Origin: a virus
Reading direction: 5' to 3' (one strand)
IMG/VR virus record: IMGVR_UViG_3300033571_006464
Span: 1 to 29,808 of that record
DNA length: 29,808 nucleotides
The notes below the pieces were generated by a model, which did not search any database, was not told the DNA's origin, and saw only the letters and a list, made by a program, of their open reading frames with translations. Positions within the stretch are counted from its first letter, which is position 1, and each line of letters starts with the position of its first letter. Below are positions 13,983 through 25,077 of the stretch, one piece after another. Position numbers and translations under genes: made by a program.

Positions 13983-14459
13983 ATGAAGAAAAAAGAACAC
14001 TACGTAAATAACAAAGATTTTTTAGATGCTTTAGTTGTTTATAGAAATGAAGTAAAAAAATCAGTAGAAGAAGGAAGGAACAAGCCAAAAGTTCCAAACT
14101 ATGTTGGAGAGTGTTTTCTTAAGATTGCAACCCACCTTTCGTATCGTCCTAACTTTGTGAACTATATGTTCAAAGATGATATGATTTGTGATGGTATTGA
14201 AAATTGTCTTCAATATATTGACAACTTTGACCCAGAAAAATCTACTAACCCCTTTGCATATTTTACTCAAATTATTTACTTTGCATTTCTAAGAAGAATT
14301 CAAAAAGAAAAGAAACAGCTTGAAATCAAATCTAAACTATTAGAACGTTCTGGATTTGATGAAGTATTTGCTGCAGATGACTCTATTATGGGATTTAATA
14401 TGTCTGATATGAACAGCATCAAAGAAAACTTAGAATATCGTAATTACAACAACCGATGA
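13983..14459 (+). CDS. gp55: Late-transcription sigma factor gp55
   Basis: gp55 replaces the host sigma factor to direct RNA polymerase to the TATAAATA late promoters seen across the virion genes. At 158 residues it is shorter than T4 gp55 (185). The sigma region 2 segment is clear: NYMFKDDMICDGIENCLQ, YIDNFDPEKSTNPFAYF and TQIIYFAFLRRIQKEKKQ (about residues 57-120). The C-terminus is polar (SDMNSIKENLEYRNYNNR) and I see no hydrophobic/acidic sliding-clamp-binding tail of the kind T4 gp55 carries. The ribosome-binding site is weak. Its stop overlaps the gp47 start by 4 nt. Confidence 0.92.
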   Translation: MKKKEHYVNNKDFLDALVVYRNEVKKSVEEGRNKPKVPNYVGECFLKIATHLSYRPNFVNYMFKDDMICDGIENCLQYIDNFDPEKSTNPFAYFTQIIYFAFLRRIQKEKKQLEIKSKLLERSGFDEVFAADDSIMGFNMSDMNSIKENLEYRNYNNR

Positions 14460-15508
14460 ACGCAGCTATTATTACAGACCAACATTTGGATGGAAGAAAA
14501 GGGTCTCAAGCTTTTTGGGACTTTTTCATGAAATTCTATAATGAAATATTTTTTCCTACACTTGAAAAAAACAATATAAAAATTTTGTTTGATTTAGGAG
14601 ATACTTTTGATAACAGAAAAAATATAGATTTTGCTGCTTGGTCTAGAATTAAAACTCAATATTATGATAGATTGCAAGAACTAGGTGTTCAAGTTCATAT
14701 GATTGTTGGTAATCATACTGCATATTATAAGAACACTAATAGAATTAATACTCCAAGTTTATTATTAAATTCTTATGATAATATCACAATATACGATGAA
14801 ATTTGTGATATTGATATTCTAGGTAATACCATTACAATGATTCCTTGGATTAATTCCGAAAATCAATCTAAAGTTATGTCTCATCTACAAAATACTAAAT
14901 CTCAAGTATTGATGGGACATTTAGAAATTACTGGATTTGAAGCACACCCAGGACATGTTTTTGAAGGTGGATTAGATAGAAGTATTTTCTCTAAATTTCC
15001 TCAAGTTTTTTCTGGTCACTTTCACCACAAATCAAGAGCAGAAAACATCTATTATCTAGGAAATCCTTATGAAATTACTTGGAGTGATTATAATGAAGAA
15101 AGAGGATTTCATTTGTATGATTTAGATACTAGGAAATTAAAATTTATAAGAAACACATTTAGAATGTTTAAAAAGTTCTACTATGATGATAATAAAACTG
15201 ATTATCTTTACGTAGACTTAACTGAATACAAAGATTCTTATGTTAAAGTAATTGTAGAAAATAAATCAGACTCTTACATGTTTGATAAAGTAGTTGAAAA
15301 ATTTTATTCTGTTGGCGTACATGATTTAAAAATAATTGAAGACAATTCAATGTTTAATTCTGATAGTGACGACACAGAAAGTATCGAGCATGAAGATACA
15401 CTAACTACACTACAAAGATACATAGAAGAAATGAAAGATAATTATGACAAGTCAAACTTGAAATCAATTATCAAATCAATATACATAGAAGCATGTGAAA
15501 TACAATAA
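14456..15508 (+). CDS. gp47: Recombination endonuclease subunit gp47 (Mre11-like)
   Basis: This nuclease subunit of the gp46/gp47 complex resects DNA ends for recombination-dependent replication. Calcineurin-type phosphoesterase motifs appear in order: TDQHLDGR (residues 7-14), LGDTFDNRKN (about 46-55), GNHTAYYKNTN, GHLEITGFEAHPGH and SGHFHHKS. These provide the two-metal site of the Mre11/SbcD family. Length 350 against 339 in T4. It overlaps gp55 upstream (ATGA) and its last base overlaps the start of the next gene, indicating one coupled operon. Confidence 0.96.
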   Translation: MNAAIITDQHLDGRKGSQAFWDFFMKFYNEIFFPTLEKNNIKILFDLGDTFDNRKNIDFAAWSRIKTQYYDRLQELGVQVHMIVGNHTAYYKNTNRINTPSLLLNSYDNITIYDEICDIDILGNTITMIPWINSENQSKVMSHLQNTKSQVLMGHLEITGFEAHPGHVFEGGLDRSIFSKFPQVFSGHFHHKSRAENIYYLGNPYEITWSDYNEERGFHLYDLDTRKLKFIRNTFRMFKKFYYDDNKTDYLYVDLTEYKDSYVKVIVENKSDSYMFDKVVEKFYSVGVHDLKIIEDNSMFNSDSDDTESIEHEDTLTTLQRYIEEMKDNYDKSNLKSIIKSIYIEACEIQ

Positions 15509-15783
15509 TGTACATTCTAACACTCAAAGGAAGAAAACATGAAGGTGCATATGCAGTAGAAACTTCTGATGGATGTAAAGTTCTTCAGCTTTTTGTTGAC
15601 TGCGATGATGCATTTCGTTATATTGGGCTGTTGGAAGCAGATGGATTTCCAGAAATGGAATCTTTAGAAATAGAAGAAGAAGATGCTATTGCAGCATGTG
15701 AGAATTTCGGCTATAATTACTGTGTTATTACCCCTGAAGATTTCGTAATTCCTCCAGAGACTGTTAGTTATGATTTTATTTAA
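15508..15783 (+). CDS. DUF3110-like protein between gp47 and gp46
   Basis: This 91-residue protein resembles DUF3110, a small family I know mainly from cyanobacteria and plastids. The pattern is EGAYAVE, then VLQLFVDCDDAFRYIGLLEADGFPEMESLEIE, then an acidic helix and a Tyr/Cys strand. The 'F.d.dDA.Ry..lLea..FP' core is the family hallmark as I remember it. Biochemical function is unknown. It overlaps gp47 by 1 nt and gp46 by 14 nt, so it is made together with the recombination nuclease. Physical association with gp46/47 is a guess from position. Confidence 0.8.
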   Translation: MYILTLKGRKHEGAYAVETSDGCKVLQLFVDCDDAFRYIGLLEADGFPEMESLEIEEEDAIAACENFGYNYCVITPEDFVIPPETVSYDFI

Positions 15784-17485
15784 AAATGTTACTTATTCCA
15801 ACTTTCTTGCAGTAGGTAATGTTCCAATATCAATAGATTTAAATTCAAATTCTACTACGTTGATAGTAGGTTCTAATGGAGCAGGTAAAAGTACAATTAT
15901 AGAAGCTATAATTTTTGCTCTGTTTAATAAATCATTTAGAAAAGTAAATAAAAACCAATTAATTAATTCAATCAATGAAAAAGATTGTAAGGTAGAACTT
16001 GATTTTGTAATTGGTTCTAAAGAATATAAAATTATTCGTGGTCTTAAACCAAATATTTTTGAAATCTATATTGATGGAAAACCACTAGACCAACTTGCTG
16101 CAAATTCTGACCAACAAAAATATCTTGAGCAAAATATTTTGAAATTGAATTACAAATCATTTACTCAGATTGTAATTCTTGGTTCTAGTACTTTTGTTCC
16201 ATTCATGCAACTTCCTGCAGCACATCGCAGAGAAATCATTGAAGACCTTTTAGACATTCGTATTTTTTCAACGATGAATGTTATTCTAAAAGATAGAATT
16301 AAAACAAACAATGATAGCATAAAGTCATACGATAATGAGATTGAATTCTTGAAAGAGAAAGTCAAAATGCAAAAGAATCATATTGATTATATTTCAAGTC
16401 AATCTCAAAAAAGTATTGAGGATAAAAAAACTCAAATTCAAGATTACGAAAATCAAATTGAAGACTGTGAGAAAGAATATGATAAAATTTGCACAGATTT
16501 GAGAAATAAAAATCAAGAATTGGCAGACCTTCCTAAAATTAATATAAAAGATTTAGAAAAATATAAAACTAAGTTTCTAACTAAGTTGTCTGATTATGAA
16601 AATAATATAAATTTTTATAGTCAGAATGATACTTGTCCTACATGTCAACAAGAACTAACTACAGAAATTAAAACTAAACACATTAGTAAGTGCAACACTC
16701 AAATTGATAAATTGCAAAAATCTATTGAAGAGGTAGAAACTAAGATAGAAGAATCTCAAAATATAATTAATAAATCTGAAAAAATTCTATCTGAGATTAA
16801 TGAATTTACTGTTCAAATGGCATCCCAAAATTATAAATGTAAAGGTCTTTCAAAATTTATTGATTCGTTGAAAGATGAAATTGATAAAATATCAGAATCA
16901 GATAAGGACATTGCAATAGAAAAACAAAAATTAACTTCTCTTGCTTCTGAGGGATTGACACTCCAGAAAAAATTAGATAAGATGAAACATAATAAAAATC
17001 ATTATGAAGTGGTTTCTAGTTTGTTAAAAGATACTGGGATTAAATCTAAAATTATTAAAAAATATCTTCCAGTAATGAATCAATTGATTAATAAGTATCT
17101 TCAATTAATGGATTTTTATGTCAACTTTAATCTTGATGAAAATTTTGAAGAGACTATAAAATCTAGGTTTAGAGATGATTTTAGTTACTCTTCTTTCTCT
17201 GAGGGAGAAAAAATGAGAATTGATTTAGCTTTAATGTTTACTTGGAGAGCAATTGCAAAATTAAAAAATTCTGCAAACACTAATCTTCTTATTTTGGATG
17301 AAGTATTTGATAGTTCTCTTGATGGGGCAGGCACAGAAGATTTTCTGAGAATTATTCGTGGTGGAATTGATGAAGATACTAATATCTTTGTAATATCACA
17401 TAAAGGAGATTTATTGCATGATAAATTTGATAGAATCCTAAAATTTGAAAAAGTTAAAAACTTTAGTAAAGTAAAGGACATATAA
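15770..17485 (+). CDS. gp46: Recombination endonuclease subunit gp46 (Rad50/SMC-like ATPase)
   Basis: This is the ATPase partner of gp47. The Walker A GSNGAGKS is at 34-41. Long coiled-coil arms (about 170-290 and 293-415) flank a CPTC zinc hook (C289, C292), the dimerising hook of Rad50. The ABC signature FSEGEKMRIDLAL is near 476-488, and Walker B LLILDEVFD has D510/E511, followed by a switch VISHKG. Length 571 against 560 in T4. The start lies inside the preceding gene (14-nt overlap). Complete and without visible defects. Confidence 0.97.
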   Translation: MILFKNVTYSNFLAVGNVPISIDLNSNSTTLIVGSNGAGKSTIIEAIIFALFNKSFRKVNKNQLINSINEKDCKVELDFVIGSKEYKIIRGLKPNIFEIYIDGKPLDQLAANSDQQKYLEQNILKLNYKSFTQIVILGSSTFVPFMQLPAAHRREIIEDLLDIRIFSTMNVILKDRIKTNNDSIKSYDNEIEFLKEKVKMQKNHIDYISSQSQKSIEDKKTQIQDYENQIEDCEKEYDKICTDLRNKNQELADLPKINIKDLEKYKTKFLTKLSDYENNINFYSQNDTCPTCQQELTTEIKTKHISKCNTQIDKLQKSIEEVETKIEESQNIINKSEKILSEINEFTVQMASQNYKCKGLSKFIDSLKDEIDKISESDKDIAIEKQKLTSLASEGLTLQKKLDKMKHNKNHYEVVSSLLKDTGIKSKIIKKYLPVMNQLINKYLQLMDFYVNFNLDENFEETIKSRFRDDFSYSSFSEGEKMRIDLALMFTWRAIAKLKNSANTNLLILDEVFDSSLDGAGTEDFLRIIRGGIDEDTNIFVISHKGDLLHDKFDRILKFEKVKNFSKVKDI

Positions 17486-17559: not shown

Positions 17560-19725
17560 ATGTCCGACATCCAACAGTCCAAAAGCATTCTTGCAAAACT
17601 TCTGGCAACTGAAAACCTAACAGTAGAACATCGTTCGGTTTCAACCGCAAGTTTTGATACTCATAATCGTATTCTGACTCTTCCTATCTGGGACAAAACA
17701 TCTAATGATGTATATGACCTTCTTGTTGGTCATGAAGTTGGTCATGCTCTCTATACTCCAGATTTGTATGGAAGCGACCTAAATCTTCCTCAGAGTTATC
17801 TGAATATTGTTGAGGATGCTCGTATTGAGAAGCTGATGAAACGAAAGTATCCTGGTCTTGCTCGTGCATTTTATCGTGGATATTCAGAACTGAATGACAA
17901 AGATTTCTTTGAGATTGATTCTATTGATATCAATACTTTAAAATTTATTGATAAAGTAAATCTATATTTTAAACTTGGCAATGTAAATAGTGGAGTATTT
18001 ATTAATTTTACATCAGAAGAACAAGTATTTGTAAACAAAATTGCTAAAGCAGAAACTTTTGAGGATGTAGTAGCTATTGTCAAAGAACTTGTTGAGCATA
18101 CTGAGCAAGAAATGGAACTGCAAATTCAAATATCTCATGGAGATTCTGGAGAATCTGATGAAGAGAATGAGCAAATGGATTCCCAATCAATTGATTCTTC
18201 TGATAGTCAAGTAACTGAAAATCAGAGTCAAAATTCTCCCGACAGTAGTTCTGATAAGAAAGAAGATTCTTCTTCTTCTGATAATGTTCAATCTTCATCT
18301 AACAATTCTGGAAAAGAAGCAGATTTTAATTCCAAGACAGATGATGCTTGGTCTAAAAATCAGAAGCAGCTTGCTTCAATGAATACAAATAATTATATTT
18401 ATTTGTCACCTCCAGAAATTAATGTAGATACCCATATCATTAATTGGAGGGAGTTTGCCGAAGACCTTCCAAATATTTTTAAAGAGATTATTTCCAGTGC
18501 TTCGTATGGGTATAATGGAAAGGAGTATTATCGTAAAATGTTTAATACCGCAGATAGTTCTTATAAAAAATACAAAGAAGAGTGCAAGAAATCAGTCTCA
18601 TATCTAATTAAAGAATTTGAGATGAAAAAGAAAGCAACTGAATATAATCGTTCAGCTACTGCTGCAACTGGTATTCTTGATACCAATAAGATGTATTCAT
18701 ACAAATGGAATGATGACATTTTCAAAAAAGTTACTGTAGTTCCTAAAGGTAAATCTCATGGACTTCTCATGCATGTAGATTGGTCTGGGTCTATGCAAGG
18801 AAATCTTGTTGGCACCATCAAGCAACTATTCAACCTAATTCAATTTTGTAAGAAAGTTCAAATTCCTTTTGAAGTTTATTCTTTTAACGACAAAAATGTA
18901 GCAAAAAATTATGCTCAAATTTCTAGGAGCAAAAAGTTAAAGATTCAAGATAACCAGATTTATATTAGTGATGATTTTCTTCTGGTGAATTTGTTCAGCA
19001 GTAAAATGAATAGTGCTCAACTAGAAAAGCAAATGCAATATGTTTGGAAACTTGCATATGCACTAGACCATCGAGTTTATTTAACTCATCAGTATTCTCA
19101 TTATGATTTGGGAAGCACTCCTCTGAATGAATCTGTATTTGCTTCTATTCCTCTGTTTCATAAATTCAAATCTACTTATAAGGTAGACAAAGTAAATACA
19201 GTATTTCTTACTGATGGAGAATCTAATTCAGTTTCTTACAATCGACCATCACATTCAGGTGCATCCAGGAATATTGTCCATGCTGGATGGAATTCTGCAA
19301 ATGATATTCTTTGTTTTCAGGATAGAAAGAATAAAATTACAATGATGGATATTAATAAGAATGGAAGTATTGGAGTTACATCTTGTTTTGTAGATTATTA
19401 TCGCCAGGTAACTGGTTCAAATGTAGTTGGATTTAGGTTGATTGAATTTTATCAGGCAAAAACTTTCTTGACTCGTTATTTGAAACCTGAGTACTCTTCT
19501 TGGAGTGATGTATCAACTGAATGGTTAAAGACAAAATCATTTACTTCAACCTCACTAGGGTATAACGAACTATATTTTATTCAAATTGATGATGGCATTT
19601 CTACTCAAACTGAAGAAACAGAACCTGCTCCTGTCACTAATGTTGCGGTAGCATTTAAAAAGCAAATGGGTAGGAAAGCGTTCAATAAAATCATCTTATC
19701 TAAATTCATCGAGCAAATCGCTTGA
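17560..19725 (+). CDS. Zincin-motif and von Willebrand A-domain protein, CobT-like
   Basis: This 721-residue protein has three parts. The N-terminal domain has a zinc-protease-type HEVGH at 58-62 (GHEVGHALYTP), followed by YLNIVEDARIEKLMKRKYPG, which could give a downstream Glu ligand. A Ser/Asp/Glu-rich linker spans about 190-255. The C-terminal von Willebrand A domain has a full MIDAS: DWSGS (D407, S409, S411) and FLTDGE (D552). Proteins of this build (CobT, NorD and other VWA partners) work with a MoxR/CobS-type AAA+ ATPase, and such a gene follows directly. The start at 17560 is chosen because an upstream in-frame start lies inside the promoter. Whether it cleaves peptides, inserts a metal or remodels a target is not shown by the sequence. 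Confidence 0.88.
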   Translation: MSDIQQSKSILAKLLATENLTVEHRSVSTASFDTHNRILTLPIWDKTSNDVYDLLVGHEVGHALYTPDLYGSDLNLPQSYLNIVEDARIEKLMKRKYPGLARAFYRGYSELNDKDFFEIDSIDINTLKFIDKVNLYFKLGNVNSGVFINFTSEEQVFVNKIAKAETFEDVVAIVKELVEHTEQEMELQIQISHGDSGESDEENEQMDSQSIDSSDSQVTENQSQNSPDSSSDKKEDSSSSDNVQSSSNNSGKEADFNSKTDDAWSKNQKQLASMNTNNYIYLSPPEINVDTHIINWREFAEDLPNIFKEIISSASYGYNGKEYYRKMFNTADSSYKKYKEECKKSVSYLIKEFEMKKKATEYNRSATAATGILDTNKMYSYKWNDDIFKKVTVVPKGKSHGLLMHVDWSGSMQGNLVGTIKQLFNLIQFCKKVQIPFEVYSFNDKNVAKNYAQISRSKKLKIQDNQIYISDDFLLVNLFSSKMNSAQLEKQMQYVWKLAYALDHRVYLTHQYSHYDLGSTPLNESVFASIPLFHKFKSTYKVDKVNTVFLTDGESNSVSYNRPSHSGASRNIVHAGWNSANDILCFQDRKNKITMMDINKNGSIGVTSCFVDYYRQVTGSNVVGFRLIEFYQAKTFLTRYLKPEYSSWSDVSTEWLKTKSFTSTSLGYNELYFIQIDDGISTQTEETEPAPVTNVAVAFKKQMGRKAFNKIILSKFIEQIA

Positions 19726-19750
19726 CTTCCACCCCTCTTTCCCCTATACT
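19722..19750 (+). promoter_or_regulatory. Sigma70-like promoter of cobS
   Basis: TTGACT (19722-19727), 17-nt spacer and TATACT (19745-19750). The -35 hexamer contains the stop codon of the VWA gene (TGA 19723-19725). Transcription should begin near 19757, and GAGG (19766-19769) precedes the ATG at 19779. Confidence 0.8.
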
Positions 19751-19778
19751 ACTTTCATACCAAACGAGGTACTTAATT

Positions 19779-20882
19779 ATGACTGACCAACTGATTGAAA
19801 ATCTTTCCGCTCTTTACGGTGAAACTGTTACTCGTCAACAACTAATTGAATATGCTGCAAATTCAAATACTTCTCTTGCAGTAATTTGCAAAACTCTAGA
19901 GCCAAATAAAACTGGTCGTGGAGTTTGGAATTTGACTGTAGCCGAAAAACTTGAAATTAATTTTAATACTATGACTGCATCTCCTGCATCTCCTGCAATC
20001 AGCTTCGTCCCCCAAAAAGACAAGAATTACGTCTCGTTTGGTAACTTCAGTGATGTAAAGCGAATTGTTAAGTCTGGGATGTTCTATCCTGTTTTTATTA
20101 CTGGTTTGTCTGGTAATGGTAAAACCGTAAGTGTCGAGCAGGCTTGTGCTCATCTGAAGCGTGAACTTATTCGTGTCAATATCACTATTGAAACCGATGA
20201 GGATGACCTTTTGGGTGGCTTTCGACTTGTTGATGGAGAAACTGTATGGCATGATGGTCCAGTAGTAAATGCACTGAAGCGTGGTGCTGTTCTGCTGCTT
20301 GACGAGATTGACCTTGCTTCCAACAAGATTATGTGTCTACAGTCTGTCTTGGAAGGTAAAGGTGTTTTCCTCAAGAAAATCAATCAGTACGTAACTCCTA
20401 CTTCTGGATTCAATGTAATTGCTACTGCTAACACCAAAGGTAAGGGTTCTGATGATGGTCGCTTCATCGGCACCAACGTGATGAACGAAGCTTTCCTTGA
20501 GCGTTTCCCCATTACTTTTGAGCAACCATATCCTTCGATGGCAACTGAGAAAAAGATTCTCATGAATCTAATGAATACCTTTGAGGTTATCGACGAGGAG
20601 TTTGTAGACAAGCTAATTGTCTGGGCAGATACTATTCGTAAGACCTTCTATGATGGGGGTGTAGATGAAATCATTACCACTCGCCGTCTTGTTCACATCA
20701 TTCAATCATTTGCGATTTTCAAGAACCGCAAGAAAGCTATCAATGTTTGTATCAATCGTTTTGATGATGATACCAAGAGTTCTTTCCTAGACCTCTACAA
20801 GAATATTGATGCTTCTGCTCTAGACACCAATGAGGAAAGTGTGGTAGAAACTAATGAAGAAACACTTGACAGTTCTATCTGA
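19779..20882 (+). CDS. cobS: CobS-like MoxR-family AAA+ ATPase
   Basis: This 367-residue AAA+ protein is of the type annotated as cobaltochelatase subunit CobS in cyanomyoviruses. The N-terminal about 60 residues are helical (LSALYGETVTRQQLIEYAA). The ATPase has Walker A GLSGNGKT (109-116), a pre-Walker B loop with DDLLGGFRL, Walker B LLLDEID (D175/E176), sensor 1 FNVIATANT, and an arginine-containing ERFPITFEQP segment. The start at 19779 has a proper ribosome-binding site; an in-frame TTG at 19722 is the promoter -35. CobS normally works with a VWA partner (CobT) and the large chelatase CobN; the VWA partner is next door, CobN is not in this window. Its substrate is therefore unproven. Confidence 0.93.
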   Translation: MTDQLIENLSALYGETVTRQQLIEYAANSNTSLAVICKTLEPNKTGRGVWNLTVAEKLEINFNTMTASPASPAISFVPQKDKNYVSFGNFSDVKRIVKSGMFYPVFITGLSGNGKTVSVEQACAHLKRELIRVNITIETDEDDLLGGFRLVDGETVWHDGPVVNALKRGAVLLLDEIDLASNKIMCLQSVLEGKGVFLKKINQYVTPTSGFNVIATANTKGKGSDDGRFIGTNVMNEAFLERFPITFEQPYPSMATEKKILMNLMNTFEVIDEEFVDKLIVWADTIRKTFYDGGVDEIITTRRLVHIIQSFAIFKNRKKAINVCINRFDDDTKSSFLDLYKNIDASALDTNEESVVETNEETLDSSI

Positions 20883-20942: not shown

Positions 20943-21257
20943 ATGCAATGGAAGTACAATGAAGAAAAAATTCTTAAAGATATTGAGGATTATGTCGTAA
21001 GTACTTATGGGAGTCATTATTGTGGTCATGATGATGACTATCGTGATGTTCAGACTATTGACCTAATGGCAGCAAAGGGATTAGCACAAGATTTCTGTCA
21101 GGCTAATATTTTAAAATATGGAAGCCGTTATGGGGATAAAGACGGTCATAACAAGCGAGACCTAATGAAAGTGATTCATTATGCTATGCTCCTACTTCAC
21201 TTCGATAAACACTATTCACGAACAAACAACGGTCTTCAGGAGTTCAAATCAGTATGA
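20943..21257 (+). CDS. DUF3310-like small protein
   Basis: This 104-residue protein contains DFCQANILKYGSRYGDKDGHNKRDLMKVIHYAMLLLHF. That matches the pattern of DUF3310, a small helical family common in phages (GN-x-x-KY-x-x-R followed by D-L-x-K-x-x-x-Y) and sometimes labelled a nucleotide-related protein. True function is unknown. The start at 20943 has GGAG (20930-20933) 9 nt upstream; an in-frame ATG at 20883 would lie in the promoter spacer and is rejected. It leads the gp45-gp44-gp62-regA operon and overlaps gp45 by 4 nt, so it is made together with the clamp genes. Confidence 0.82.
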   Translation: MQWKYNEEKILKDIEDYVVSTYGSHYCGHDDDYRDVQTIDLMAAKGLAQDFCQANILKYGSRYGDKDGHNKRDLMKVIHYAMLLLHFDKHYSRTNNGLQEFKSV

Positions 21258-21919
21258 AAATTTCAGATAAAACTAAAAACATTCTAGAAAATTTTTCAGC
21301 AATTAATTCTTCTATTGTTGTAAAAAAAGGAAACCTAATTCAGACTGTTTCTCCACAAAAAAATATTAAAGCTACTTATGAGTGTGATGAAACATTTGAT
21401 TCGGATTTTGCTTTCTATGATTTGCTAGAGTTTCTTCGTGGTCTTACTATTTTGAAAAATCCAGATTTTGATTTTTCAAATGATAAGTATGTAATTATTA
21501 GTAGCGGAAATTCTAAGGTAAAGTATTACTATTGCGACCCATCTCTAATTACTACTAGTGATAAACAGCTCCCAGACCTTCAGACTGATGTAGAATTTCA
21601 GTTGTCTGATGACGTTCTCAATTCTCTTCTAAAAGCATCGAAGGTGTATCAATTAAATGATATGTCTTTAGTTGGAGATGGAAACGAAATGATGCTAGTA
21701 GTATCTGATAGAGAAGATGTAACTTCCCATAGCTTCTCGGTTGGAGTTGGGAAGACTAATCGAAAGTTTACTGTAAATTTTAAGGTAGAAAATCTTAAAA
21801 TTGTTCCAGATTCATATACAGTTAAGATTACATTTCCCAATATTTCTACCTTTATAAGTTCTACGCATAATCTAACTTATCTAATTGCTTTAGAACCAGA
21901 TTCCGATATTGAGGATTGA
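21254..21919 (+). CDS. gp45: DNA polymerase sliding clamp gp45
   Basis: The trimeric clamp tethers gp43 and, in T4, also activates late transcription through gp55 and gp33. Length 221 against 228 in T4. The opening KISDKTKNILENFSAINSSIVVKKGNLIQTVSP and the strand EFQLSDDVLNSLLKASKVYQLNDM are typical of the T4-type clamp. The C-terminus is IALEPDSDIED. The start overlaps the upstream stop (ATGA), and the stop is 5 nt before gp44. Firm by sequence style and by its place beside the clamp loader. Confidence 0.95.
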   Translation: MKISDKTKNILENFSAINSSIVVKKGNLIQTVSPQKNIKATYECDETFDSDFAFYDLLEFLRGLTILKNPDFDFSNDKYVIISSGNSKVKYYYCDPSLITTSDKQLPDLQTDVEFQLSDDVLNSLLKASKVYQLNDMSLVGDGNEMMLVVSDREDVTSHSFSVGVGKTNRKFTVNFKVENLKIVPDSYTVKITFPNISTFISSTHNLTYLIALEPDSDIED

Positions 21920-21924
21920 TTTTT

Positions 21925-22872
21925 ATGTCTCGTAATGATTTTTTGTGGGTTGAGTCTTACCGACCAACAACAATACAGGATTGTATTCTTCCTTTGGATA
22001 TTAAAAAATCTTTTGAAGATTTTGTTGCCAAAGGAGATATTCCAAACATGTTATTCTCTGGTCCTCCTGGTATCGGGAAGACCACAGTTGCTAAAGCATT
22101 GTGTAATGAATTAGGAGTAGATTCATATGTTATCAACGGCTCAGATGAAGGAAGGTTTCTCGACACGGTTCGGAACAAAGCAAAAAACTTTGCATCGACC
22201 GTATCATTGGAAACAAATGGTAAACCAAAGGTCATCATTATTGATGAGGCTGACAACACAACCAGCGATGTACAACTCTTACTTCGGGCGAACATTGAGA
22301 CGTTTCATCGCAACTGTAGGTTTATCTTCACCTGCAATTACAAAAACAAAATCATCGAACCACTACACTCAAGATGTGCAGTCTTCGATTTCTCTATCCA
22401 AGGAAAGAGCAAACCACTCGTCGCTTCCCAATTCTTTGACAGAGTACGGGAAATCTTGGCTAAGGAGGGTGTTACCTATGATGAAAAGGTAATTGCAGAA
22501 GTAATCAATACTTTCTTTCCAGATTGGCGAAGAATCCTAAATGAACTTCAAAGATATTCTGTTGGAGGAAGTATAGATAGTGGAATCCTAGCAAGTTTTT
22601 CTGATATCAATATGAAGAACTTAATGGGGTACATGAAAGAAAAAGATTTTTCAAATGTTCGTAAATGGGTAGTTGAGAATTTGGATAATGATGTGAATAG
22701 ACTTATTCGCATGGTTTATGAAAAACTTTATGTTACTTTAAAGCCACAATTTATTCCTCAAGCGGTAATAATCTTGGCAAACTATCAATCAAAAGTTCCT
22801 TTTGTTGCAGACCAAGAAATTAATTTATTGGCTTGTTTCACCGAACTAATGCACGATTGTCAATTTAAATAA
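21925..22872 (+). CDS. gp44: Clamp loader large subunit gp44
   Basis: This AAA+ ATPase (four copies with one gp62) opens and loads the gp45 clamp. Walker A is GPPGIGKTT (46-54), Walker B IIIDEAD (D107-E108-A109-D110), and the SRC motif (LHSRCAVF) carries the arginine finger. It starts MSRNDFLWVESYRP, the usual opening, and 315 residues match T4 (319). An in-frame TTG 9 nt upstream overlaps the gp45 stop and is not preferred; GAGG (21911-21914) fits the ATG at 21925. The stretch 22120-22470 looks richer in GC and C-ending codons than the flanks. Confidence 0.96.
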   Translation: MSRNDFLWVESYRPTTIQDCILPLDIKKSFEDFVAKGDIPNMLFSGPPGIGKTTVAKALCNELGVDSYVINGSDEGRFLDTVRNKAKNFASTVSLETNGKPKVIIIDEADNTTSDVQLLLRANIETFHRNCRFIFTCNYKNKIIEPLHSRCAVFDFSIQGKSKPLVASQFFDRVREILAKEGVTYDEKVIAEVINTFFPDWRRILNELQRYSVGGSIDSGILASFSDINMKNLMGYMKEKDFSNVRKWVVENLDNDVNRLIRMVYEKLYVTLKPQFIPQAVIILANYQSKVPFVADQEINLLACFTELMHDCQFK

Positions 22873-24116: not shown

Positions 24117-24437
24117 TTAATCCCTTTGTCTCCAATCTTCTGGTTTATCTTCAGTGAAGAAATCTACAATATCATCTACAGTATCAAATCTACCGATTCC
24201 TTTTCTTTCGTTTCCAAGTCCGCCAATATCAAGTTGATTTAAAAAATCATCTAAGTCACCTTCTTGCATATCTGGGTTTTCAGCTTTTCTTCTTGCTTGA
24301 CGTAAAATTGTTCCTGCAGCTCTATTTGCTTGTGCCAATTTCTCTGCCCAAATAATATCGTGCAATGACACTTCATTTCCTTGCACGATGTTCTTGCAAA
24401 TTGCTTCTAGTCTAAGTCGATAATTTGTAGAAAGCAT
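24117..24437 (-). CDS. Hypothetical 106-residue protein
   Basis: The minus-strand gene begins MLSTNYRLRLEAICKNI and has a helical N-terminal two-thirds (SLHDIIWAEKLAQANRAAGTILRQARRKAE), a Gly-rich turn (LDIGGLGNERKGIGRF) and an acidic end (DTVDDIVDFFTEDKPEDWRQRD). The DIVDFFTED segment looks like a short hydrophobic-acidic partner-binding motif. I do not recognise the family with certainty; its size and beta-flap-like helices would allow a gp33-type late transcription coactivator, but I cannot show that. It is divergent from hsp20, with a late-type promoter 24 nt upstream, and its stop is about 35 nt before the candidate -10 of the small-gene operon. Confidence 0.8.
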   Translation of the reverse strand: MLSTNYRLRLEAICKNIVQGNEVSLHDIIWAEKLAQANRAAGTILRQARRKAENPDMQEGDLDDFLNQLDIGGLGNERKGIGRFDTVDDIVDFFTEDKPEDWRQRD

Positions 24438-24573: not shown

Positions 24574-25077
24574 ATGAAATTTACCACTCAATCACTAGAT
24601 TCATTTTGGAACGATTACGCTCCACTCGCTGTAGGTCTGGATGAAATGTTTAACCGATTAGATGCTATGCAGCATTCGGTAAACGTAAATTATCCGCCCT
24701 ACAATATCGTCAAACATGACAATAGTAACTACACAGTTGAAGTCGCTCTTGCAGGATTTACACCAGAAGAGATTGAAGTCTTTACAGAACAAAACATTCT
24801 CACAATTGCCAGTAAAGTTGAGGAACGAGATACTACAAGACAGTATGTACACCAAGGTCTGTCAAAGCGTTCCTTCACACGTAAGATTCAACTCTCCGAT
24901 GAACATAGAGTATCCTCTGTGAATTTTGAGCATGGATTATTATCTGTAGACATCGAAAGAATTATTCCAGAACATCAAAAGAAAACAACTTGGTCTATTC
25001 CTGGAGTAAAATCAGATCCTCAATTTTTGACAGAGGATAGAGATTCAAATTTCCCAGGAGAGAACACAATTAAATAA
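24574..25077 (+). CDS. hsp20: Small heat-shock protein Hsp20
   Basis: This is an ATP-independent holdase chaperone of the alpha-crystallin family, characteristic of cyanomyoviruses. The alpha-crystallin domain runs from about residue 47 to 135: PPYNIVKHDNSNYTVEVALAGF, EEIEVFTEQNILTIASK and the diagnostic FEHGLLSVDIERIIPE. Length 167. I see no C-terminal I-x-I oligomer-locking motif; the tail is Asp/Glu/Asn-rich (FLTEDRDSNFPGENTIK). It has its own promoter, and its stop codon is fused to a late promoter octamer. A role in folding virion proteins during infection is inferred. Confidence 0.95.
   Translation: MKFTTQSLDSFWNDYAPLAVGLDEMFNRLDAMQHSVNVNYPPYNIVKHDNSNYTVEVALAGFTPEEIEVFTEQNILTIASKVEERDTTRQYVHQGLSKRSFTRKIQLSDEHRVSSVNFEHGLLSVDIERIIPEHQKKTTWSIPGVKSDPQFLTEDRDSNFPGENTIK

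Follow-up and report, generated by a model that had tools for sequence, protein, structure and literature searches.

What does the cyanophage gene known as cobS do together with the gene that precedes it? The cobS gene is a cyanophage core gene (PMC3037559), and it serves as a community marker of myo-cyanophages and is interpreted as a gene for vitamin B12 (PMC9983427, PMC3037559). The pair was known before, and two papers from 2021 conflict about it, so that the pair is not new but its meaning is disputed: one proposed that a viral CobST hijacks the CobN of the host (PLoS Biol 2021, PMC8651126), and passages of the other describe, for group 2.2 jumbo phages, a MoxR-vWA pair that includes an N-terminal metallopeptidase, and propose that it acts in virion assembly (Viruses 2021, PMC7824862). 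We analysed the pair on a 29,808-base IMG/VR virus fragment (IMGVR_UViG_3300033571_006464, hereafter the window), a Kyanoviridae (cyanomyovirus) contig with T4-like cyanomyovirus gene order. Two neighbouring plus-strand open reading frames (ORFs) encode a 721-aa zincin-VWA protein and a 367-aa CobS/MoxR-type AAA+ ATPase. We give about an even chance to the reading that the ATPase is a MoxR-type AAA+ motor and the zincin-VWA protein its adaptor, and that the two work on a client protein where phage DNA replicates or recombines, and not as a cobaltochelatase.

The gene pair and its conserved motifs

The original prediction had described an adjacent pair carrying HEVGH, a downstream EDARIE, a complete metal ion-dependent adhesion site (MIDAS) and intact Walker A and B motifs, and all of these were recovered in the two ORFs. 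Both genes are full-length PHROGs matches and show the synteny of the Kyanoviridae core pair phrog_459/phrog_249, labelled ‘peptidase’ for the zincin-VWA gene and ‘porphyrin biosynthesis’ for the ATPase gene. Earlier TTG starts of these ORFs arise only mechanically in the ORF listing. Co-occurrence, a check proposed with the prediction, was also observed: both genes are present at 77 of the 87 loci that hold the zincin-VWA gene, and the remaining loci end within about 1.0 kb of it. In the phage collection the two genes are equal in number (Synechococcus 365, cyanophage 61 and Prochlorococcus 24 records each), and the pair was found in cyanophages, in the pelagiphages HTVC008M and Mosig and in Ochrobactrum phage OC. 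A Kyanoviridae-type zincin-VWA gene also lies on a 188-kb contig (NZ_RMVE01000006.1, L111) of the cultured flavobacterium Nonlabens xiamenensis, as a phage contaminant or a provirus.

Conservation was measured in 86 Kyanoviridae relatives of the zincin-VWA protein (59 clusters at 70% identity). The HExxH residues, E85, D86, R88 and the residues of the complete MIDAS (D407-x-S409-x-S411, T520 and D552) are invariant, as compared with a mean column identity of about 43%, so that motif conservation exceeds what chance would give. This invariance of HExxH, downstream Glu and MIDAS across Kyanoviridae is new here. In the case of the ATPase, the Walker residues are kept in 69/69 relatives, and the protein matches AAA_5 of Pfam (E 2.6e-19); its profile matches midasin, CobS, NorQ and CbbQ. 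Thus, an AAA+ ATPase with intact Walker motifs stands next to a VWA partner with complete MIDAS, and the HExxH lies on a helix in the AlphaFold2 model. ATPase matches in Staphylococcus 812 and Acinetobacter AM24 had no adjacent HExxH-MIDAS partner and were set aside.

Structural models and known systems

The AlphaFold2 model of the zincin-like domain shows three strands, an HExxH helix (49-65) and a Glu helix (78-96). E85, sited in this next helix, is the probable third zinc ligand in the model. Sequence searches did not place this protein: Pfam gave no match at E<=1, a Pfam scan of 61 family members gave scattered weak matches only, the full profile found nothing among PDB sequences, and the N-domain profile alone found unrelated chains and no zincin.

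Structural comparison with reference MoxR-VWA systems had been suggested in the original prediction. By VIA-align, the modelled VWA domain best matched the MDN1 MIDAS domain (Z 18.3, root-mean-square deviation (rmsd) 3.1, 217 aligned), followed by NorD VWA (Z 16-17; the Z 16.4 match had rmsd 4.1 over 227 aligned), and the ATPase model is closest to CbbQ and NorQ. NorQ/NorD and CbbQ/CbbO share domain order and MIDAS with the phage pair and supply its best structural matches; however, NorD and CbbO serve a membrane oxidase and Rubisco, and the zincin signature and replication context belong to the phage pair. Midasin (Rea1/MDN1) is similar in its MIDAS domain, the top structural match, and in its AAA profile, but it is one giant chain acting in ribosome assembly and has no zincin. 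CobS and CobT of CobNST are similar in combining a CobS-like AAA+ with a partner made of an N-domain, an acidic linker and a C-terminal VWA, the VWA domains being homologous. The jumbo phage pair has the same architecture and is, going by the passages of PMC7824862, probably of the same family; those passages propose virion assembly and do not contain the conservation, plasmid relatives or replication linkage described here.

The N-terminus of the ATPase is a predicted winged helix-turn-helix (HTH)-like domain. Several HTH families of Pfam weakly match Kyanoviridae ATPase relatives (best DUF2089-HTH, 9/25 members, 2.1e-5), and the ATPases of the DnaE group described below show a weakly matching ROS/MucR-like finger. 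There could thus be two unrelated DNA-binding-like N-domains, HTH-like in Kyanoviridae and ROS/MucR-like in the DnaE group, a suggestion that we put forward weakly.

Gene neighbourhood in Kyanoviridae

The pair lies between the recombination nuclease genes gp47 and gp46 and the genes of the gp45 sliding clamp and gp44 clamp loader. Among IMG/VR loci with enough flanking DNA, gp46/gp47 were located upstream within about 2.5 kb in 39/40 and gp45/gp44 downstream in 29/32. The order gp55-gp47-gp46-pair-gp45-gp44 is kept in most pair-bearing phages (cyanophages, pelagiphages and OC), and no capsid or tail gene linkage was seen in the pair regions read. The main text of a cyanophage transcriptome paper (PMC5082946) does not mention the pair genes.

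Table 1. Positions of the features discussed. Positions refer to the window, except for the last four rows, which are counted within the plasmid loci named.
Feature	Position	Strand	Remarks
gp47 and gp46 recombination nuclease genes	14456..17485	+	directly upstream of the pair
Zincin-VWA gene	17560..19725	+	721 aa; ATG 17560, stop ends 19725; phrog_459 ‘peptidase’, E 5.9e-228
N-terminal zincin-like domain	17560..18138	+	about residues 1-193; AlphaFold2 model, predicted local distance difference test (pLDDT) mostly 76-90
HEVGH, putative zinc-binding/catalytic motif	17731..17745	+	residues 58-62; H58, E59, H62 kept 86/86
EDARIE	17812..17829	+	residues 85-90; E85, D86, R88 kept 86/86; helix 78-96
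Ser/Asp/Glu-rich disordered linker	18139..18333	+	about residues 194-258; pLDDT <50 for 195-253
Helical region and VWA domain	18334..19722	+	residues 259-721; modelled structure matches MDN1 MIDAS and NorD VWA
MIDAS motif 1, DWSGS	18778..18792	+	residues 407-411; D407, S409, S411 kept 86/86
MIDAS threonine T520	19117..19119	+	kept 86/86
MIDAS motif 3, TDGE	19210..19221	+	residues 551-554; D552, G553 kept 85/85 where present
CobS/MoxR-type AAA+ ATPase gene	19779..20882	+	367 aa; ATG 19779, stop ends 20882; phrog_249, E 2.8e-128
Predicted winged HTH-like N-terminal domain of ATPase	19779..19988	+	AlphaFold2 order H-E-H-H-E-E, residues 2-51
Walker A, GLSGNGKT	20103..20126	+	residues 109-116; G109, G112, G114, K115 kept 69/69
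Walker B, LLLDE	20292..20306	+	residues 172-176; D175, E176 kept 69/69
gp45 sliding clamp and gp44 clamp loader genes	21254..22872	+	directly downstream of the pair
DUF3150-bearing plasmid locus L099	10647-11924		
DUF3150-bearing plasmid locus L100	6987-8258		
DUF3150-bearing plasmid locus L101	7138-8265		
DUF3150-bearing plasmid locus L104	6869-7945		

Further downstream of the clamp loader cluster lies a gene for Hsp20, itself a cyanophage core gene (24574-25077 of the window), which is near the pair in pelagiphages too. A 106-aa ORF (24117-24437), placed after the replication cluster and before this gene, runs on the minus strand in a stretch that is otherwise plus-strand.

Relation to CobS, CobT and CobN

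By score, the pair is not a cobaltochelatase. The ATPase reached 78.3 bits against TIGR01650, far under the CobS equivalog cut-off of 558.55 bits, and the zincin-VWA protein reached 10.2 bits against TIGR01651 (CobT equivalog cut-off 759.05 bits) within residues 171-277 only, i.e. the acidic linker region. CobN was found in 0/13 complete elements. The original prediction of a missing CobN therefore holds for these complete relatives; the 29.8-kb window taken alone is a fragment and could not show such an absence. With that, neither observation named beforehand as speaking against the prediction, a CobN homologue or the loss of HExxH and MIDAS residues in most homologues, was made in the complete elements and the Kyanoviridae relatives. 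A class I ribonucleotide reductase (RNR) small subunit is encoded by 12/13 of the complete elements and class II NrdJ scored over its cut-off in none, so that a phage need for B12 through its own RNR is unlikely. As to control genomes, E. coli gave no CobN match, and Caulobacter vibrioides had CobT over the cut-off and CobN not, which is a case of CobST without CobN in a chromosome.

The doubt cast earlier on the cobalamin reading stood as far as these scores go, but it had overlooked a distant homology to CobT. Iterative hidden Markov model (HMM) searches, controlled with reversed and shuffled sequences, grouped the VWA domain with genuine CobT. The Pfam CobT N-domain matches the N-domains of the SSU5 and RHEph10 proteins (E 1.2e-25 and 1.6e-7), and from these profile matches we conclude that it belongs to the zincin domain described here. 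This link runs only through SSU5/RHEph10: direct comparison of the Kyanoviridae and CobT N-domains by hhalign was not significant (P 0.023), and no round of the iterative N-domain HMMs brought in genuine CobT above the controls. The zincin-VWA protein thus appears to be a distant CobT homologue, descent from the CobST family being partly indicated, and the CobT label is not baseless.

The metal site differs. The CobT family model was used to collect twelve genuine CobT proteins; in these, HExxH is missing, and H[DN]xxxH and then E[QA]xR are found instead at a comparable position. Chelatase CobT may be an altered form with a changed metal site. Given both the CobT relatedness and a real peptidase motif, both papers of 2021 are partly right.

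Relatives on phage-plasmids and conjugative plasmids

In SSU5/RHEph10-type phage-plasmids, HExxH and ED..[IV]E are kept in every full-length protein (74/74; 20 clusters at 50% identity). The ATPase gene lies directly downstream of the zincin-VWA gene, and at 73/73 loci where the DNA extends far enough, DnaE follows 1.3-4.3 kb downstream on the same strand. Named DnaE-linked elements are SSU5, Nican01, BUCTxx99, RHEph10, X66, pWM99c-2 and pAMS5a.

In the case of conjugative plasmids, the gene order is AAA-x-ssb-bet-exo-DUF3150-VWA in IncC pNDM10505, whose VWA protein begins with HEAAH...NVLEDCRIERAM. It is ssb-recT-exo-x-MoxR-DUF3150-VWA in the MOBH plasmid p027_SK3a and AAA-DUF3150-VWA-toprim in IncHI. 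An N-domain HMM links the Kyanoviridae zincin domain to the SSU5, RHEph10, X66, OC, p027 and IncHI proteins (round 1 E 1.8e-8 to 1.5e-4, as against at least 8 for reversed or shuffled controls), and a search with the IncC N-domain matched 1,777 plasmid records, among them ‘CobT’ proteins of SSU5 type (E 2e-10). Judged from these sequence links, phage-plasmids and IncC/IncHI conjugative plasmids carry the same zincin domain, which is new here. The pair also appears to be part of a broader CobST-related family, carried by mobile elements, where active-looking zincins are frequent. Its neighbours are replication or recombination genes in all groups, namely gp46/gp45, DnaE or ssb-bet-exo.

The third gene of these plasmid loci, DUF3150, is located beside or near the MoxR ATPase and zincin-VWA genes (Table 1). 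Separately, Orf45 of Gordonia phage GMA2 (L097, 8062-10257) carries HETGH...EELRCER and a DCSAS MIDAS-like motif, has genes for thymidylate synthase and dUTPase nearby, and is possibly a further independent family member.

Alternative explanations

A viral CobST would replace host ChlI/ChlD or a missing CobST and drive cobalt insertion by the host CobN, raising B12 (PMC8651126). The VWA homology to genuine CobT and the weak CobS likeness of the ATPase (78 bits) fit this proposal, as do the presence of CobN in picocyanobacteria and the lack of CobT in cyanobacteria (0/59 over the cut-off; PMC9227772). We nevertheless find it quite unlikely, given the low scores of both proteins, the complete elements without CobN, their class I RNRs and the HExxH that the phages keep and genuine CobT lacks. 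Moreover, related family members sit on E. coli and Klebsiella elements, although E. coli gave no CobN match. Less probable still is that the pair loads metal into a phage metalloenzyme or activates it, much as in NorQD or CbbQO; NorQD inserts iron (PMC13036017) and the class I RNR small subunit would be an available target. This target, raised in the original prediction, found no support: in the genomes searched, RNR genes are distant from the pair, the subunit is common in large phages anyway, and NorQD-type machines require no protease motif.

Virion assembly or maturation, in which the pair would fold or clip a structural protein, was likewise raised beforehand, and passages of PMC7824862 propose it, alongside an archaeal virus whose tail assembly depends on a MoxR-vWA pair; zincins can also act in maturation. 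We regard it as unlikely, because the genes around the pair, in those annotated contexts of Kyanoviridae, the DnaE group and plasmids that were read, are replication and not structural genes, and because conjugative plasmids make no virions yet carry the same domain. An attack on a host or rival-element protein by regulated proteolysis, for counter-defence or takeover, would suit a presence in both phages and conjugative plasmids, and MoxR-vWA couples occur in conflict systems (PMC7159879). However, the window proteins match no PADLOC models, and strict core conservation with fixed replication synteny is unlike the patchy pattern expected; this makes such a role rather improbable.

Several observations weigh against a client-cutting machine at phage DNA. 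The structural matches were taken up by the VWA part and included no solved zincin, and the HTH and ROS/MucR matches are weak, the latter being under its Pfam cut-off. Nican01, BUCTxx99 and pWM99c-2 have lost HExxH yet keep MIDAS and DnaE linkage, so that cutting is not always needed. CobN was detected in 3/3 picocyanobacterial genomes, and for cyanobacteria an explanation by a CobN-using host keeps some probability. Finally, gene neighbourhood is indirect evidence, and as each lineage inherits its own synteny, only about three or four contexts are independent. Taken as a whole, the results support a remodelling machine of the MoxR-VWA kind whose zincin signature is intact and, as originally predicted, a part in core infection, not in B12.

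Possible mechanism and significance

In NorQD, cryo-electron microscopy shows that a VWA finger enters the ring pore, with a twisting mechanism presumed to hold for other pairs of this kind (PMC13036017). Driven by ATP, the VWA domain rotates relative to its N-domain and stretches the client (PMC13036017; PMC9976466). Following this scheme and that of midasin, the phage ATPase would form a hexamer, which the predicted winged HTH domain may bring near DNA, and the VWA domain would dock on the ring. The MIDAS metal could then bind the client through one of its acidic residues, and the client would be pulled as ATP drives rotation. The tethered zincin, putatively zinc-binding, would probably cut the exposed client, or merely hold it in some relatives. 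The client may be part of the replication or recombination machinery.

SPRTN/p97 and Wss1/Cdc48 pair a zincin protease with an AAA+ motor at replication, and their likeness to the phage pair is one of analogy only. By this analogy there is a small chance that the pair is a widespread replication-coupled protease-unfoldase of phages and conjugative plasmids, which would use a DNA-bound ring to extract and cut protein roadblocks or DNA-protein crosslinks ahead of the replication or recombination machinery; CobT would then be a relative with a changed metal site that took on a new task.

In conclusion, the gene pair was already known, and its label is either wrong or disputed; the zincin signature, the plasmid spread and the repeated replication linkage make a testable and moderately surprising case. 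As the same domain occurs in about 1,800 plasmid records, results from E. coli phage-plasmids would inform on conjugative plasmids. If a remodelling protease at replication is indeed encoded here, the routine metabolic annotation of abundant ocean viruses would be wrong.

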